Shown here in pieces: positions 1,869 to 6,298 of a stretch of 10,207 nt of DNA (position 1 is the first letter of the stretch; the number at the start of each line of letters is the position of its first letter). The notes beneath the pieces are model-generated. The model saw only the letters and a list, made by a program, of their open reading frames with translations. It was not told the DNA's origin and made no database searches. The translations under genes and the position numbers were made by a program. Source of the stretch: Clostridia bacterium (GTDB lineage Bacteria > Bacillota_A > Clostridia > Christensenellales > Aristaeellaceae); NCBI GenBank assembly GCA_009783365.1, contig WRHG01000057.1, positions 1-10,207 of the forward strand, written 5' to 3'.

Positions 1869-2177
1869 ATGGCAGTCATTCAGCTGACTAAGGAAAATTT
1901 TGAGGCGGAAGCGCTTCAAAGTGATAAACCCGTCTTGATCGACTTTTACGCGGACTGGTGCGGCCCCTGCAAAATGGTAGCCCCAATTGTGCTTGAGTTA
2001 TCAATGGAGAACACAGGTTTCAAAGTGTGTAAGCTCAACGTGGACGATGCCCCGGAAATAGCGGCTAAATACAATGTGCTAAGCATTCCTACATTGATTG
2101 TGCTAAAGGAAGGAAAAGTTGCGAATCAAATTGTAGGCGCCCAGAACAAAGATACCCTGAAAGCTATGTTGAAATGA
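1869..2177 (+). CDS. trxA: Thioredoxin
   Basis: This 102-residue classical thioredoxin is a cytoplasmic dithiol-disulfide oxidoreductase, normally reduced by thioredoxin reductase. The redox motif is intact: W30-C31-G-P-C34, in the context DFYADWCGPCKMVAPI. The cis-proline loop follows at about P74 (SIPTL), and the length is typical of a single-domain thioredoxin. There is one further cysteine (C54). The start is well supported by GGGAGG before ATG. The stop codon overlaps an ATG of the ahcY frame (ATGA at 2174-2177), so the two genes are probably one transcript and may be translationally coupled. Thioredoxin supplies electrons to many sulfur-assimilation enzymes, which fits the neighbours. 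No reductase gene is in the window. Confidence 0.95.
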   Translation: MAVIQLTKENFEAEALQSDKPVLIDFYADWCGPCKMVAPIVLELSMENTGFKVCKLNVDDAPEIAAKYNVLSIPTLIVLKEGKVANQIVGAQNKDTLKAMLK

Positions 2178-2200
2178 GCAATACAGAAGGCGGTCGCTGC

Positions 2201-3442
2201 ATGGATTCCATCATGAAGGACCCGTTCCTTGCGCCGCAGGGAGAACAAAAAATCCATTGGGCCAGGAAGCATATGAAGGTTGTACAAGGCATCGCGGAGA
2301 CCTTTCAAAAAACACAACCCTTCAAGGGTATGAAAATCGCACTCTCCATTCACCTGGAAGCCAAAACCGCCTACTTGGCCCAGGTGTTTCAGGAAGGCGG
2401 CGCACATGTCTTTGTGACCGGCTCCAATCCCCTATCCACTCAGGATGATGTATGCGCCGCTCTGGCTCAAAGCGGCGTTACGGTCTATGCGACCCATGGT
2501 TGCTCCCCGCAAGAATTGCATGACTACGAATGCCGGGCATTGGCCAACATGCCGGACATTATCATCGACGACGGCGGCGATATGGTGCATATACTGCATG
2601 AGGAACATCCGGAGTGGGCCGTCCATGTAAGAGGCGGCTGTGAAGAGACCACAACAGGGATCATCCGGCTGAAGAGCCGGGCTGAAAATGGTTCTCTGCG
2701 CTTTCCCATGTTCAATATCAATGACGCCGATTGCAAACACTTATTTGACAATCGATACGGCACCGGACAAAGCGTATGGGACGGCATTATGCGCACCACA
2801 AACCTGAACGTAGCCGGCGCCACGGTTGTGATTAGCGGATACGGCTGGTGCGGTAAAGGCGTGAGTATGCGGGCCAAGGGGCTTGGCGCCAAAGTCATTG
2901 TCACGGAAATAAACCCCGTCCGCGCCATTGAGGCTGTGATGGACGGCTTCATCGTGCTTCCCATGGAAGAAGCAGCCGCTTTGGGAGATTATTTCATCAC
3001 GGTCACAGGCTGCAAGGATATAATTTTGCCGAAGCACATACAACTCATGAAGGAAGGAGCAATACTATCCAACGCGGGCCATTTTGACGTAGAGGTCGAC
3101 GTTGCCGGCTTACGCGCTTTTGCCACAAACAGCTTTCCCGTACGAACCAATATAGAAGGATTTCTGCTTCCCAATGGAAAGACCGTTTATCTGCTTGCCG
3201 AAGGTCGCCTGGTCAATCTGGCGGCTGCAGACGGCCATCCTGTAGAGATTATGGATATGAGTTTTGCCTTACAAGCCCTGTGCGCCCAGAGAGTGGCGAA
3301 GCAGGGCGCGGCCCTCGCCAAAACCTTACACGCCGTGCCCATGGAGATTGATCGTGACGTAGCCTTGCGTAAACTCAACGCAATGGGCATTTCTATCGAC
3401 ACCCTCGTCCCGGAGCAGGAACATTATCTGCGCGGATCGTAA
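2201..3442 (+). CDS. ahcY: S-adenosylhomocysteinase, short Thermotoga type
   Basis: The enzyme is NAD-dependent and reversibly splits S-adenosylhomocysteine into homocysteine and adenosine, clearing the by-product of SAM methylation. From this start it has 413 residues. Substrate-domain motifs are present: SIHLEAKTAYL (49-59), the DDGGD acid cluster (123-127), CEETTTG (147-153), and catalytic-type K179 and D183 in CKHLFDNRYG. The Rossmann NAD motif is GYGWCGKG (213-220), followed by GHFDVEV (293-299) and GRLVNLAAADGHP (335-347). The cysteine usual after DN-YG in eukaryotic enzymes is threonine (GTGQS). The C-terminal KPDHYRY-type tail is missing. Both are known traits of the Thermotoga/archaeal class. 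A second in-frame ATG at 2174 overlaps the trxA stop but lacks a ribosome site; AGAAGG lies 10 bases before 2201. Some relatives of this class prefer S-inosylhomocysteine, so substrate preference is open. Confidence 0.92.
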   Translation: MDSIMKDPFLAPQGEQKIHWARKHMKVVQGIAETFQKTQPFKGMKIALSIHLEAKTAYLAQVFQEGGAHVFVTGSNPLSTQDDVCAALAQSGVTVYATHGCSPQELHDYECRALANMPDIIIDDGGDMVHILHEEHPEWAVHVRGGCEETTTGIIRLKSRAENGSLRFPMFNINDADCKHLFDNRYGTGQSVWDGIMRTTNLNVAGATVVISGYGWCGKGVSMRAKGLGAKVIVTEINPVRAIEAVMDGFIVLPMEEAAALGDYFITVTGCKDIILPKHIQLMKEGAILSNAGHFDVEVDVAGLRAFATNSFPVRTNIEGFLLPNGKTVYLLAEGRLVNLAAADGHPVEIMDMSFALQALCAQRVAKQGAALAKTLHAVPMEIDRDVALRKLNAMGISIDTLVPEQEHYLRGS

Positions 3443-3483: not shown

Positions 3484-3512
3484 TTGACAGCTTTTCCAAG
3501 CTATGGTAAGGT
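3484..3512 (+). promoter_or_regulatory. Promoter of the met leader-metNIQ transcript
   Basis: A perfect -35 TTGACA (3484-3489), a 17-bp spacer and a weak -10 TAAGGT (3507-3512) are visible. A TG one base before the -10 makes it an extended -10 site (TGGTAAGGT). Transcription would begin near 3519, about 40 bases before the leader ORF. The interval after ahcY (from 3443) shows no clear terminator, so read-through from ahcY is possible as well. Confidence 0.6.
3489..3502 (+). promoter_or_regulatory. Perfect inverted repeat in the promoter spacer, candidate operator
   Basis: AGCTT-TTCC-AAGCT is a perfect 5-bp inverted repeat with a 4-base centre. It starts at the last base of the -35 box and lies inside the spacer, where a bound repressor would block RNA polymerase. 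The arms are short and no regulator can be assigned. Confidence 0.3.
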
Positions 3513-3525
3513 GTACAGCAAGTAA

Positions 3526-3539
3526 GGCGCTACAACGCC
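3526..3539 (+). other. Small hairpin before the leader ribosome site
   Basis: GGCG (3526-3529) and CGCC (3536-3539) can pair around a six-base loop, four bases before the leader's AAGGAGG. The 4-bp stem is weak. It may stabilise the RNA 5' end or affect leader translation, but it could be chance. Confidence 0.3.
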
Positions 3540-3558
3540 AAGCAAGGAGGAATCGCAC

Positions 3559-3636
3559 ATGACGAGCCTATGTGCCATGCCGATGCAAATGATGCGCGCG
3601 TGCGATTGTCCGTGCTGTTTGTGTTGCGTCGCTTAA
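3559..3636 (+). CDS. Met- and Cys-rich leader peptide, 25 residues, upstream of metN
   Basis: A perfect Shine-Dalgarno AAGGAGG (3544-3550) stands 8 bases before an ATG that opens 25 codons and a TAA. The peptide reads MTSLCAMPMQMM, then RACDCPCCLCCVA. Five residues are Met (1, 7, 9, 11, 12) and seven are Cys (5, 15, 17, 19, 20, 22, 23), so 12 of 25 are sulfur amino acids. The Met codons cluster first and the Cys codons second. The stop lies 14 bases before an intrinsic terminator, and the gene beyond is metN of a methionine importer. By analogy with trp, his and leu leaders, and with cysteine-rich leader peptides known in actinobacteria, I infer that ribosome stalling at Met or Cys codons sets terminator read-through. 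Alternatives are a small metal-binding peptide or a chance ORF, made less likely by the ribosome site and position. I do not know this leader from the literature. Confidence 0.72.
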   Translation: MTSLCAMPMQMMRACDCPCCLCCVA

Positions 3637-3650
3637 TGGTTTAGGAAGCC

Positions 3651-3686
3651 AAAGCCCGCTTCGCATCTGCGCGAAGCGGGCTTTTT
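3651..3686 (+). terminator. Intrinsic terminator acting as attenuator before metN
   Basis: AAAGCCCGCTTCGC (3651-3664) pairs perfectly with GCGAAGCGGGCTTT (3671-3684) around a 6-base loop, and a run of five T (3682-3686) ends it. It sits between the leader ORF and metN, inside the transcript of the TTGACA promoter, so it must be read through for metNIQ expression. GTGCGA (3600-3605, in the leader ORF) could pair with TCGCAT (3661-3666). GGTTT (3638-3642) could pair with AAGCC at either 3646-3650 or 3652-3656. These are possible but short competing helices. Confidence 0.85.
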
Positions 3687-3713
3687 GATGGCATTCATGA
3701 AAGGATGGGCTTC

Positions 3714-4796
3714 ATGACGATACCTGACGGGCGGCAAGTAGATATCTTTGATAATTACGACCATCCCGTGATCGACCCGGACGCCGCGGAGGCTAAACCA
3801 CCGCAGATTGAAATCCGGGCCCTTAAGAAGGTATATCCTGTTCCGGGCGGCGAGCTGGTGGCCCTCTGCAATGTAAACCTCACCATTCAAAAAGGAGATA
3901 TTTACGGCATCATCGGTATGAGCGGCGCCGGCAAAAGCACCCTCATCCGCTGCCTTAACCGGCTTGATACCCCTACGGAAGGTCAGGTTTTCATCGATGG
4001 TGAAAATATCCTCGCCATGAGCCGGAGGGAACTGTGCGAAACACGCCGGCGTATGGGCATGATTTTTCAGCAGTTCAATCTGCTCATGCAGCGGACTGTG
4101 GCCCGCAATGTTCGCTATCCCCTCGAAATCGCCGGCATTCCCTCCAAGGCCGCCAACGAGCGCGTAAAGGAATTGCTGAAGATCGTTGGGTTGGAAGAAA
4201 AAGCCGCCGCATTCCCCAGCCAATTAAGCGGCGGGCAAAAGCAACGGGTGGCCATTGCCCGGGCGCTGGCCAGCAACCCGGAGATGCTCCTGTGCGATGA
4301 GGCCACCAGCGCGCTGGATCCCATGACCACCCAATCCATCCTGAGTCTTCTTAAGGAAATCAACCATAAAATGGGCATCACAGTGGTACTGATCACGCAC
4401 GAGATGGCGGTAATTAGGCAGATTTGCAACAAAGTGGCTATTCTGGACTTTGGGGAGTTGGTGGAAGAGGGCGCCGTGGATGACGTGTTTATGCATACCA
4501 AATCCGCAGCCGGCAAGCGGCTATTTGGCATCCTGCCCCAGGAGGAGGCAGCCCCTCCCCAACCCGCGCTGCGAATCGTATTTGACGGCGAGGCGGCGGA
4601 ACAACCCGTCATCAGCCGCCTTGTCAAAGAATGCGGTGTGGATGTCAACATCCTATCAGCGGATATGCGCCAGCTAAACCAAAAGGTCTACGGACAGATG
4701 CTGATCCAAAGGCCCTCCGGCATTGCGGACCGGCAGCGCATTATGGACTACCTGCAACTAATGGGTCTGATGGTGGAGGAGGTGCATGGGCAATGA
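3714..4796 (+). CDS. metN: Methionine ABC transporter ATP-binding protein with NIL domain
   Basis: This is the cytoplasmic ATPase that drives methionine import through MetI. The 360-residue protein has Walker A GMSGAGKST (68-76), a Q-loop at MIFQQFNLL (116-124), the signature LSGGQ (171-175), Walker B MLLCDEAT (191-198) and the H-loop histidine H229. Residues about 285-358 form the NIL domain, which in E. coli MetN binds methionine and inhibits transport when internal methionine is high. Start choice: AAAGGA (3700-3705) lies 8 bases before this ATG, whereas an in-frame ATG at 3705 would overlap that ribosome site. About 30 residues precede the first ABC strand (QIEIRALKKV), unusual for MetN, which normally begins almost directly with it. 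No later ATG lies before Walker A. The stop overlaps metI by ATGA. Confidence 0.95.
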   Translation: MTIPDGRQVDIFDNYDHPVIDPDAAEAKPPQIEIRALKKVYPVPGGELVALCNVNLTIQKGDIYGIIGMSGAGKSTLIRCLNRLDTPTEGQVFIDGENILAMSRRELCETRRRMGMIFQQFNLLMQRTVARNVRYPLEIAGIPSKAANERVKELLKIVGLEEKAAAFPSQLSGGQKQRVAIARALASNPEMLLCDEATSALDPMTTQSILSLLKEINHKMGITVVLITHEMAVIRQICNKVAILDFGELVEEGAVDDVFMHTKSAAGKRLFGILPQEEAAPPQPALRIVFDGEAAEQPVISRLVKECGVDVNILSADMRQLNQKVYGQMLIQRPSGIADRQRIMDYLQLMGLMVEEVHGQ

Positions 4797-5455
4797 ATTG
4801 GGCGCAATTGGGTCCCCTGCTTTTGCAGGGCTGTAAGGATACCCTGTACATGACCCTTTGGAGCGGATTTTTCGCATATACCCTGGGGCTTCCGCTAGGA
4901 GTCCTCCTGGTGGTAACAAAGCGAGGCCACATTATGCAAGCGCCCAGTTTTAACGCCGCGCTGGGCGCCGTGATCAATTTTCTCCGTTCCATCCCTTTCA
5001 TCATTTTACTGGCCATGCTTTTTCCCGTCACCCGCATTGTGATGGGCAGGGCAATCGGAACCCGCAGTATTATCTTTCCACTGGTCATTAGCGCTTTTCC
5101 CTATGTAGCGCGCATGGTGGAAAACGCTCTGGCCGAAGTGGACAGCGGCGTCACGGAGGCCGCCCAATCCATGGGTTCCACAAACCGGCAGATCATTTTC
5201 AAGGTGCTGCTGCCAGAGGCCGTACCCTCCCTGGTTAACGGCGCAGCCATTGTGCTTACCAGCATTTTAGGCTATACCGCCATGGCCAGCGCTGCGGGCG
5301 GTGAAGGACTGGGCGCATTGGCGATTACCAAAGGCTATAACCAACAGAAGATGGACATTCTGTACACAGCTTGCATCGCAATGGTGCTGTTGGTACAGCT
5401 TATCACAGTTTCCGGTACGAGGTTGACCCGTAGGCTCGACCATCGGAAAAAATAG
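4793..5455 (+). CDS. metI: Methionine ABC transporter permease
   Basis: This inner-membrane permease subunit has 220 residues, close to the roughly 217 of E. coli MetI. It shows about five hydrophobic segments. The permease coupling loop lies at residues about 122-142 (EAAQSMGSTNRQIIFKVLLP), which docks on the ATPase MetN. The RSIPFIILLAML segment (65-76) is characteristic of the MetI family. The start is the ATG inside the ATGA overlap with the metN stop, served by GGAGGAGG (4775-4782) ten bases upstream. The frame stays open further upstream inside metN, but no better start is found there. Two MetI would pair with two MetN to form the transporter. Confidence 0.95.
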   Translation: MNWAQLGPLLLQGCKDTLYMTLWSGFFAYTLGLPLGVLLVVTKRGHIMQAPSFNAALGAVINFLRSIPFIILLAMLFPVTRIVMGRAIGTRSIIFPLVISAFPYVARMVENALAEVDSGVTEAAQSMGSTNRQIIFKVLLPEAVPSLVNGAAIVLTSILGYTAMASAAGGEGLGALAITKGYNQQKMDILYTACIAMVLLVQLITVSGTRLTRRLDHRKK

Positions 5456-5482: not shown

Positions 5483-6298
5483 ATGAAAAAATTTCTCGCG
5501 ATTCTACTGGTATCCATTCTGACCCTGAGCCTTTCCGCCGCCTTGGCCGGCGAGGCCATTGTCATCGGCGCGACACCAACCCCTCATGCGGAAATTTTGG
5601 AGTTGATCAAGGACGACCTGGCTGCTCTTGGGTATGATCTGGAAATTCAAATTTTTACGGAATACCCGATCCCCAACCCCGCCACGACCGCAGGCGACCT
5701 GGACGCCAATTATTTTCAGCACATCCCCTACTTAAGCGCTTACAATGAAAGCATCTCAGAGGATTCCCAACTTGTGGCCGCCATTCCTGTACACTATGAA
5801 CCCTATGGCATTTATGCCGGAACCAAGGCCACCCTTGGTGATGTGAGCGAGGGGGATTCCATCGCCATTACCAACGACCCTGCCAATATCACCCGCGCAT
5901 TGCTGCTGCTGCAAGAAGCCGGCCTCCTCAAATTGCCGGAGGGAGCCAATACGGACAGCGTCTTGAGTAAACTTGACATCGTGGAGAACCCATATAATCT
6001 GGAATTCTTTGAAATGAATGCGGAACTGATCCCCGCCTCCCTGGGTGATGTCAGCTATGCAGTCATCAACGGCAACTTCGCTATTTCCGCCGGCTTGAAA
6101 CCCGGTGAGGACGCGCTGCAGCTGGAAGATCCCCAGGGTGAAAGCGGTAAAATCTATACAAACTACGTTGTAGTGCGGCCTGAGGACAAGGACGCCGCCT
6201 GGGTGGAAGCCCTGCGTTCCGTTCTGCAGAGCGATAAGGTACGCGACTACATGAACACCAACGAAGATTACGCGAAGGGCGTCATTCCGGTCTTCTAG
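5483..6298 (+). CDS. metQ: Methionine-binding protein of the ABC transporter, without lipobox
   Basis: This 271-residue substrate-binding protein of the MetQ/NlpA family delivers methionine to MetNI. The family motif ATPTPHAEIL (30-39) follows the signal peptide, and DANYFQHIPYL (about 74-84) also fits. The signal peptide has MKK, a hydrophobic core and a probable signal peptidase I site after ALA (residue 22). There is no lipobox cysteine and no cysteine anywhere in the protein. MetQ homologues are usually lipoproteins, which keeps them on the membrane, so the mode of retention is unclear. The protein contains only three Met. A ribosome site AAAGGAG lies 8 bases before the ATG, and the gap after metI is 27 bases, so it is the last gene of the metNIQ operon. 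Confidence 0.94.
   Translation: MKKFLAILLVSILTLSLSAALAGEAIVIGATPTPHAEILELIKDDLAALGYDLEIQIFTEYPIPNPATTAGDLDANYFQHIPYLSAYNESISEDSQLVAAIPVHYEPYGIYAGTKATLGDVSEGDSIAITNDPANITRALLLLQEAGLLKLPEGANTDSVLSKLDIVENPYNLEFFEMNAELIPASLGDVSYAVINGNFAISAGLKPGEDALQLEDPQGESGKIYTNYVVVRPEDKDAAWVEALRSVLQSDKVRDYMNTNEDYAKGVIPVF

Follow-up and report, generated by a model that had tools for sequence, protein, structure and literature searches.

The methionine importer operon metNIQ in the window (the whole 10,207-nt stretch of DNA that was analysed) is very probably controlled by a trp-type, ribosome-mediated transcription attenuator that senses mainly methionyl-tRNA and possibly also cysteinyl-tRNA. Its parts, their conservation in relatives and two mutually exclusive predicted pairings can be read from the sequences. 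In many Clostridia a Met-rich, and often Cys-rich, leader open reading frame (ORF) appears to control methionine importer genes in this way.

From the arrangement of the parts we infer ribosome stalling, termination and a response to amino acids. With methionine sufficient, the ribosome would run to the leader stop codon and cover the 5′ strand of the antiterminator (3618-3634), the terminator (3651-3686) would form, and transcription would stop before metN. With charged Met-tRNA in short supply (or Cys-tRNA, at the early Cys codons), the ribosome would stall in the Met/Cys core, leaving the antiterminator strand free to capture the 5′ arm of the terminator, and RNA polymerase would read through into metNIQ.

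Leader unit and its occurrence in Clostridia

All features of the unit lie on the forward strand. The promoter (3484-3512), identified by reading the sequence, has a −35 box TTGACA (3484-3489), a 17-nt spacer and a −10 box TAAGGT (3507-3512). An extended −10 TG closes the spacer just before TAAGGT, which agrees with the −10 consensus at only three of six positions and is therefore missing from the list of the promoter scan. In many relatives, by reading, TTGACA stands at the corresponding place, followed at equal distance by a better, TATAAT-like −10 box. The leader ribosome-binding site AAGGAGG (3544-3550), with a Shine–Dalgarno sequence (SD) likewise placed in the family leaders, is followed by an ORF of 25 codons (ATG at 3559; 3559-3636 with its stop) encoding MTSLCAMPMQMMRACDCPCCLCCVA, in which there are five Met, including the start, and seven Cys. 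Met7, Met9, Met11 and Met12 (3577-3594) form the putative control-codon core, a Met core being found throughout the family. In the minimum-energy fold the strand AATCGCAC adjoining the leader start (3551-3558) pairs with GTGCGATT at 3600-3607. Comparison and folding place the antiterminator 5′ strand, TTTGTGTTGCGTCGCTT, at 3618-3634, where it overlaps the last codons (LCCVA) and the stop. The terminator, found by sequence reading and family comparison, has a 5′ arm at 3651-3664 that is shared with the antiterminator; it pairs over 14 bp with 3671-3684, and the 3′ arm and T-run together span 3671-3686.

Two marks of trp-type attenuators are thereby present: an SD-equipped leader ORF with codons for the amino acid of the pathway, and an intrinsic terminator between the leader and the first gene. 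The sequence bears out the initial annotation in its promoter, its AAGGAGG, its 25-codon ORF with five Met and seven Cys, and its 14-bp terminator right before metN.

Pfam identifies the three genes of the operon: metN, an ABC ATPase with a NIL domain (3714-4796), the permease gene metI (4793-5455, its start picked by eye inside an ORF of 4631-5455) and the lipoprotein gene metQ (5483-6298). The longest metN ORF begins at 3705; the start may be the ATG at 3705 or that at 3714, and the sequence AAAGGA is better placed for 3714. Directly upstream of the leader, at 1869-3442, Pfam finds genes for a thioredoxin and an S-adenosylhomocysteine hydrolase, which suggests a sulfur/methyl-cycle neighbourhood.

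Such an ORF is not expected by chance in this place: when the 262-nt intergenic region was shuffled 3000 times with its dinucleotides preserved, no shuffle contained an ORF behind an SD that was equally rich in Met and Cys. Across 895 kb (the window and 80 loci), an SD precedes 1219 ATG ORFs of 15-50 codons, and 14 of these are Met/Cys-rich, an enrichment that holds within such loci and not genome-wide, since the 80 were picked by metQ. Nine of the 14 stand just before metN, three just before metQ (L003, L039, L054) and one (L048) ahead of an ORF in which an SBP_bac_3 receptor is fused to MetQ; the remaining one, L017, lies on the minus strand, has no terminator and counts as background. Two sets of whole genomes were searched by pattern, 16 leader genomes (two patterns, every hit read; L201-L250) and 200 family genomes (one pattern, 30 loci read among the hits; L343-L372); leaders that lack the motif escape such searches. 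The terminator-backed leaders read there precede metN or metQ, except in L363, where a leader with terminator lies near a contig end in a locus without metN.

The initial annotation had put forward, as a check, a search upstream of metNIQ in related genomes, and short Met/Cys ORFs followed by a terminator do recur there in many Clostridia. A leader stands before metN in 8 of 61 full-length metN loci (L006, L008, L009, L011, L025, L043, L067, L055). A class-wide draw of 90 metN regions, from a list of 291 class genomes of which 118 had a match, gave six more regions with a leader (L138, L141, L145, L146, L150, L156); in that draw L142 lacked a metN match, and L158 was incomplete. In the window's family (that of G003), 165 of 200 genomes have a MetN match, and the scan detects a leader in 27 of the best 30 loci. 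L270 and L274 carry family leaders with a single internal Met, L254 and L260 begin at a contig edge with their leaders visible as L359 and L355, and L272 was unusable. At 40 further family places from the same MetN list, skipping those already sampled or incomplete, reading finds a leader in 26, with a scanned terminator behind 22 of them. The genus of G010 has a leader in every one of 23 loci (25 genomes). The closest relative of the window, L251 (MetN 82%), has the orthologous leader MTNLCAMSMCMMCACDCSCCLCCVA. G003 itself has leaders ahead of metQ (L003) and of its second metN (L091), and none was found before its first metN (L082), nor in L001 or L002.

Two kinds of variant were also seen. 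L328 and L329, of the window's family, have Met-rich leaders (MLFAAEKKSMAMMMRLMYMSDAAWSC...) behind which the scan found no terminator. In L143, L144, L157 and L179, metN follows closely on the end of what looks by eye like a MetQ reading frame, and between the two there is a terminator and no Met/Cys leader.

Alternative pairings of the leader RNA

At family level a conserved antiterminator is present whose predicted pairing excludes the terminator. Among 37 aligned leaders, 78.6% of antiterminator cells (3618-3634 with the terminator 5′ arm and loop) are paired, against 39-58% in versions slid along the alignment, and none of 500 shuffles scored as high in cells paired or in covariation score. 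The leaders are related to one another, which can by itself outscore shuffles where no structure exists, and the tested structure came from the window. The number of pairs with both partners changed does not exceed that in shuffles (196/500 as high), nor does the number of further pair types (360/500), and one slid version matches the antiterminator in the number of doubly changed cells. The terminator has 88.7% of its cells paired in the aligned family leaders. The initial annotation had named homologues that keep the terminator and lose the Met/Cys codons as a case against attenuation; the homologous loci compared here keep Met codons, antiterminator and terminator.

Equilibrium folding with a ribosome placed at each codon lets the terminator win at almost every stall position, so that the switch would have to be kinetic. 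Folding only as far as the terminator loop therefore replaced equilibrium folding, which is uninformative for a kinetic switch. On this model, over 55 leaders, pairing of the terminator 5′ arm is predicted to average 0.65 with the ribosome at the Met codons and 0.20 with the ribosome at the stop. The drop at the stop is at least 0.2 in 49 of the 55 and the reverse occurs in none; it is seen in 39 of 40 leaders whose stop lies at most 30 nt from the arm and in 10 of the 15 others. A ribosome at the stop leaves the predicted antiterminator undiminished in L067, L150, L025, L008 and L266, and in L273 the drop is below 0.2. With shuffled spacers the model still gives 0.54 versus the real 0.65 (mean rank 0.29) and, taken over 17 lineages, 0.577 versus 0.645 (rank 0.36). 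Much of the predicted drop would thus arise with any sequence, and the excess over chance appears only modest.

Pairing energies of the two strands were compared with dinucleotide shuffles in a duplex test; the combined z for 13 leaders is −3.95, and the window taken alone is not above chance (p 0.44; rank 8 of 29 in the cross-locus control). In that control, which covers 30 loci and for which chance is 0.5, the mean rank is 0.21 when strands from other loci serve for comparison, eight of the 30 loci then falling in the best 10%, and 0.30 when arms from other loci do. Near-perfect antiterminators occur in L048 (AACUCCCGGGC with GCCCGGGAGUU), L138 (UUGCUUUCUAUU with AGGUAGGAAGCGA), L146, L321 and L003, those of L048 and L138 being separate versions from other lineages. 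The argument for a predicted switch is accordingly one of conservation, not of the energy of a single sequence.

A further candidate hairpin, P1, would pair the leader start with codons 14-18. A matching change is visible by eye in L257/L258; the hairpin is absent from the consensus fold, which prefers another one, between the antiterminator strand and part of the Met core.

Methionine and cysteine codons

Family leaders keep a Met core, AMxMxM or MMMRMSMM, and vary in Cys. In 46 of them, which were selected for Met/Cys content, there are on average 4.0 internal Met and 3.4 Cys, 1.9 of the Cys lying outside the last six residues; Cys is wholly absent in three and absent outside the last six residues in nine. 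Judged by this conservation, Met is the near-universal candidate control codon.

These counts favour a narrower attenuator, in which Met is sensed alone and the Cys codons come from RNA pairing or drift. Cys22 and Cys23 of the window fall within the RNA strand UUUGUGUUGC, and the element TTTGTGYTGC is retained even downstream of an earlier stop codon (L264-L267), so the window's last two Cys codons are best explained at the RNA level, as they encode the antiterminator strand. Predicted pairing points the same way for the distal codons: ribosomes stalled at Cys19-23 weaken the antiterminator (0.31-0.40), while stalls at Cys5, 15 and 17 leave it intact (0.74-0.75), and these early Cys codons could act as control codons. 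The initial annotation had proposed a trp-type attenuator of metNIQ with equal weight for Met and Cys. The attenuator stands, with Met codons, antiterminator and terminator kept in homologues and no T-box or SAM-I match; the equal weight for Cys does not, given the RNA-kept strand at Cys22/23, the effect of late-Cys stalls and the three of 46 leaders that have no Cys.

The genus of G010 bears on both readings. Of its 17 distinct leaders, between 14 and 17 retain each core Met position and 16 retain each of two Cys positions, while several neighbouring positions drift. Invariance also extends to some positions that are neither Met nor Cys (Q, N). No synonymous variation is seen in the conserved Cys codons (TGT in 16 of 17), which is consistent with constraint at the RNA level; codon-level and RNA-level constraint are therefore inseparable in this genus.

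Against sensing of Met alone stand the leaders elsewhere. Counted over 18 leaders that are not in the aligned family set, 119 of 569 residues are Met and 62 are Cys, second only to Met, so that Cys enrichment is not merely a by-product of this antiterminator. By reading, Cys is there interleaved with Met upstream of the antiterminator (MCMC, MCMMMC). A role in sensing Cys-tRNA is plausible.

The second point against sensing of Met alone is a leader before a different importer. In L048 the leader MFRTGRANNCMMCMRMLNSRAYNMARRIDMLSCS, with a terminator, precedes a 560-aa ORF (L048:2292-3974) that fuses an SBP_bac_3 receptor to MetQ/NlpA, and downstream of it lie two ORFs of permease type and one for an ABC ATPase; relatives of the fusion, likewise behind a Met/Cys leader and terminator, occur in L374, L396-L399 and L411. 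The closest solved relatives of the receptor, 2yjp (E 4.5e-71) and 1xt8 (E 1.4e-60), are named putative amino-acid receptors, and we take both to bind cysteine; NCBIfam gave no family above cut-off for the L048 receptor. Relatives of this receptor were found in 42 loci, in 15 of which it is fused to MetQ within the stretch examined. By reading, seven of the 15 fusions have a leader, versus two of the 27 other receptor loci, and eight fusions have none. The scan called 10 leaders in total, of which that in L404 was judged spurious. Cys outnumbers Met in the leaders of L374 (MRTQICTMSCMCMCGCM...; four internal Met, five Cys) and L411 (MRNYRRSCTAMCCRMC...; three internal Met, five Cys), unlike that of L048/L373 (six Met, three Cys). 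The leaders before receptor fusions are suggestive of a role for Cys.

We therefore hold, at close to an even chance, a broader reading: widespread clostridial dual attenuators that would sense both Met-tRNA and Cys-tRNA with a single mixed run of codons, would be interchangeable with SAM-I riboswitches and T-boxes at the importer, and would also stand before the importer with the cysteine-receptor-like/MetQ fusion. It is held no higher because of the lack of synonymous Cys change in the genus of G010 and the fusions without a leader. Sensing of Met alone we consider a serious possibility, somewhat short of even.

Other explanations and known systems

Because the folding model frees the antiterminator strand whenever a ribosome stalls upstream of it, the leader might report any slowing of translation, such as that caused by antibiotics, and not specific amino acids. 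We think this improbable: a general sensor needs neither the Met/Cys bias nor the link to Met uptake genes, both of which are found in several lineages. Very improbable is a working Met/Cys-rich micropeptide, metal-binding or redox-active, with an ordinary terminator behind it; Met/Cys-rich runs may look like metal ligands, but the peptides vary widely between lineages outside the Met/Cys core, and in the window's family the 3′ end of the leader is conserved in the manner of an RNA, including where it lies beyond the ORF.

In T-box and SAM-I elements the RNA itself recognises tRNA or SAM, and no leader is translated. An Rfam scan of the window finds neither T-box (RF00230) nor SAM-I (RF00162), its only two matches being to other families and far below the gathering score, and at that score no riboswitch or T-box is found in 20 family loci. 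The 90 class-wide metN regions contain SAM-I in 18 and T-box in six at the gathering score, and neither element in any of the six leader regions among them. The earlier statement that the leader is neither an S-box nor a T-box agrees with the absence of a match in the window and in the leader-bearing loci scanned. L168, L169 and L189 each have two SAM-I riboswitches in tandem upstream of metN. That a diverged T-box or unrecognised riboswitch hides in the leader, with the ORF incidental, is scarcely credible: such elements do occupy the same position with the same function in relatives, but Rfam finds none in the window and 20 family loci, only about 40 nt of transcript lie ahead of the ORF, and the Met codons recur across lineages.

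The nearest known system is in Streptomyces lividans TK24, where a metL leader peptide precedes metNIQ on a leaderless transcript, and where the authors, in the part of the article available, found no typical Rho-independent terminator and mention Met and Thr (PMC8079986). It too is a short ORF with Met codons ahead of the same operon, and its printed sequence ends CMCRRMCAF, with three Cys, so that it also mixes Met and Cys. Unlike metL as described in that text, the clostridial leader has an SD, an intrinsic terminator and an antiterminator. The initial annotation knew of no description of such an attenuator; the same text already lists a leader peptide before metNIQ for S. lividans. A tblastn search with the S. 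lividans MetL peptide against plasmids gave no match.

In the portions seen of the respective articles, control codons in a short ORF before a terminator, as here, are also described for the His leader peptide attenuator of hisS/hisZ in bacilli (PMC2965389) and the Leu-rich ilvD leader of Staphylococcus aureus (PMC5794164). Those leaders serve other amino acids and genes, and in the window's family, unlike there, the leader ORF shares its last part with the antiterminator strand. Actinobacteria likewise have runs of Cys codons in leader ORFs before sulfur genes (PMC1262725, PMC4633059, as far as the accessible text goes). They differ in standing before cys genes and not a Met importer, in having no obvious terminators (according to the same portion of PMC1262725) and in that no mixed Met core was seen in those texts. 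The met operon of Lactococcus lactis, under a Met T-box (PMC7058034, in the extract available), and SAM-I-controlled genes share with the clostridial leaders control of a methionine importer at the RNA level; neither element matched in the leader loci scanned. Among the matches listed from the open-licence literature there is no Met or Met/Cys attenuator in Clostridia, and the only Met leader-peptide attenuator among them, as far as their available text shows, is S. lividans metL. The principle is thus already known, and what is new is therefore the lineage, the complete terminator and antiterminator, and possibly the sensing of two codons.

If the attenuator operates as proposed, ribosome-mediated attenuation would be a third RNA-level control of clostridial methionine uptake beside SAM-I and the T-box, and the sensor ahead of one operon would have been exchanged between lineages. 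Short ORFs rich in Met and Cys, of which gut bacteria have a large set, would gain a role, and it would become testable whether a single leader integrates the supply of both sulfur amino acids.
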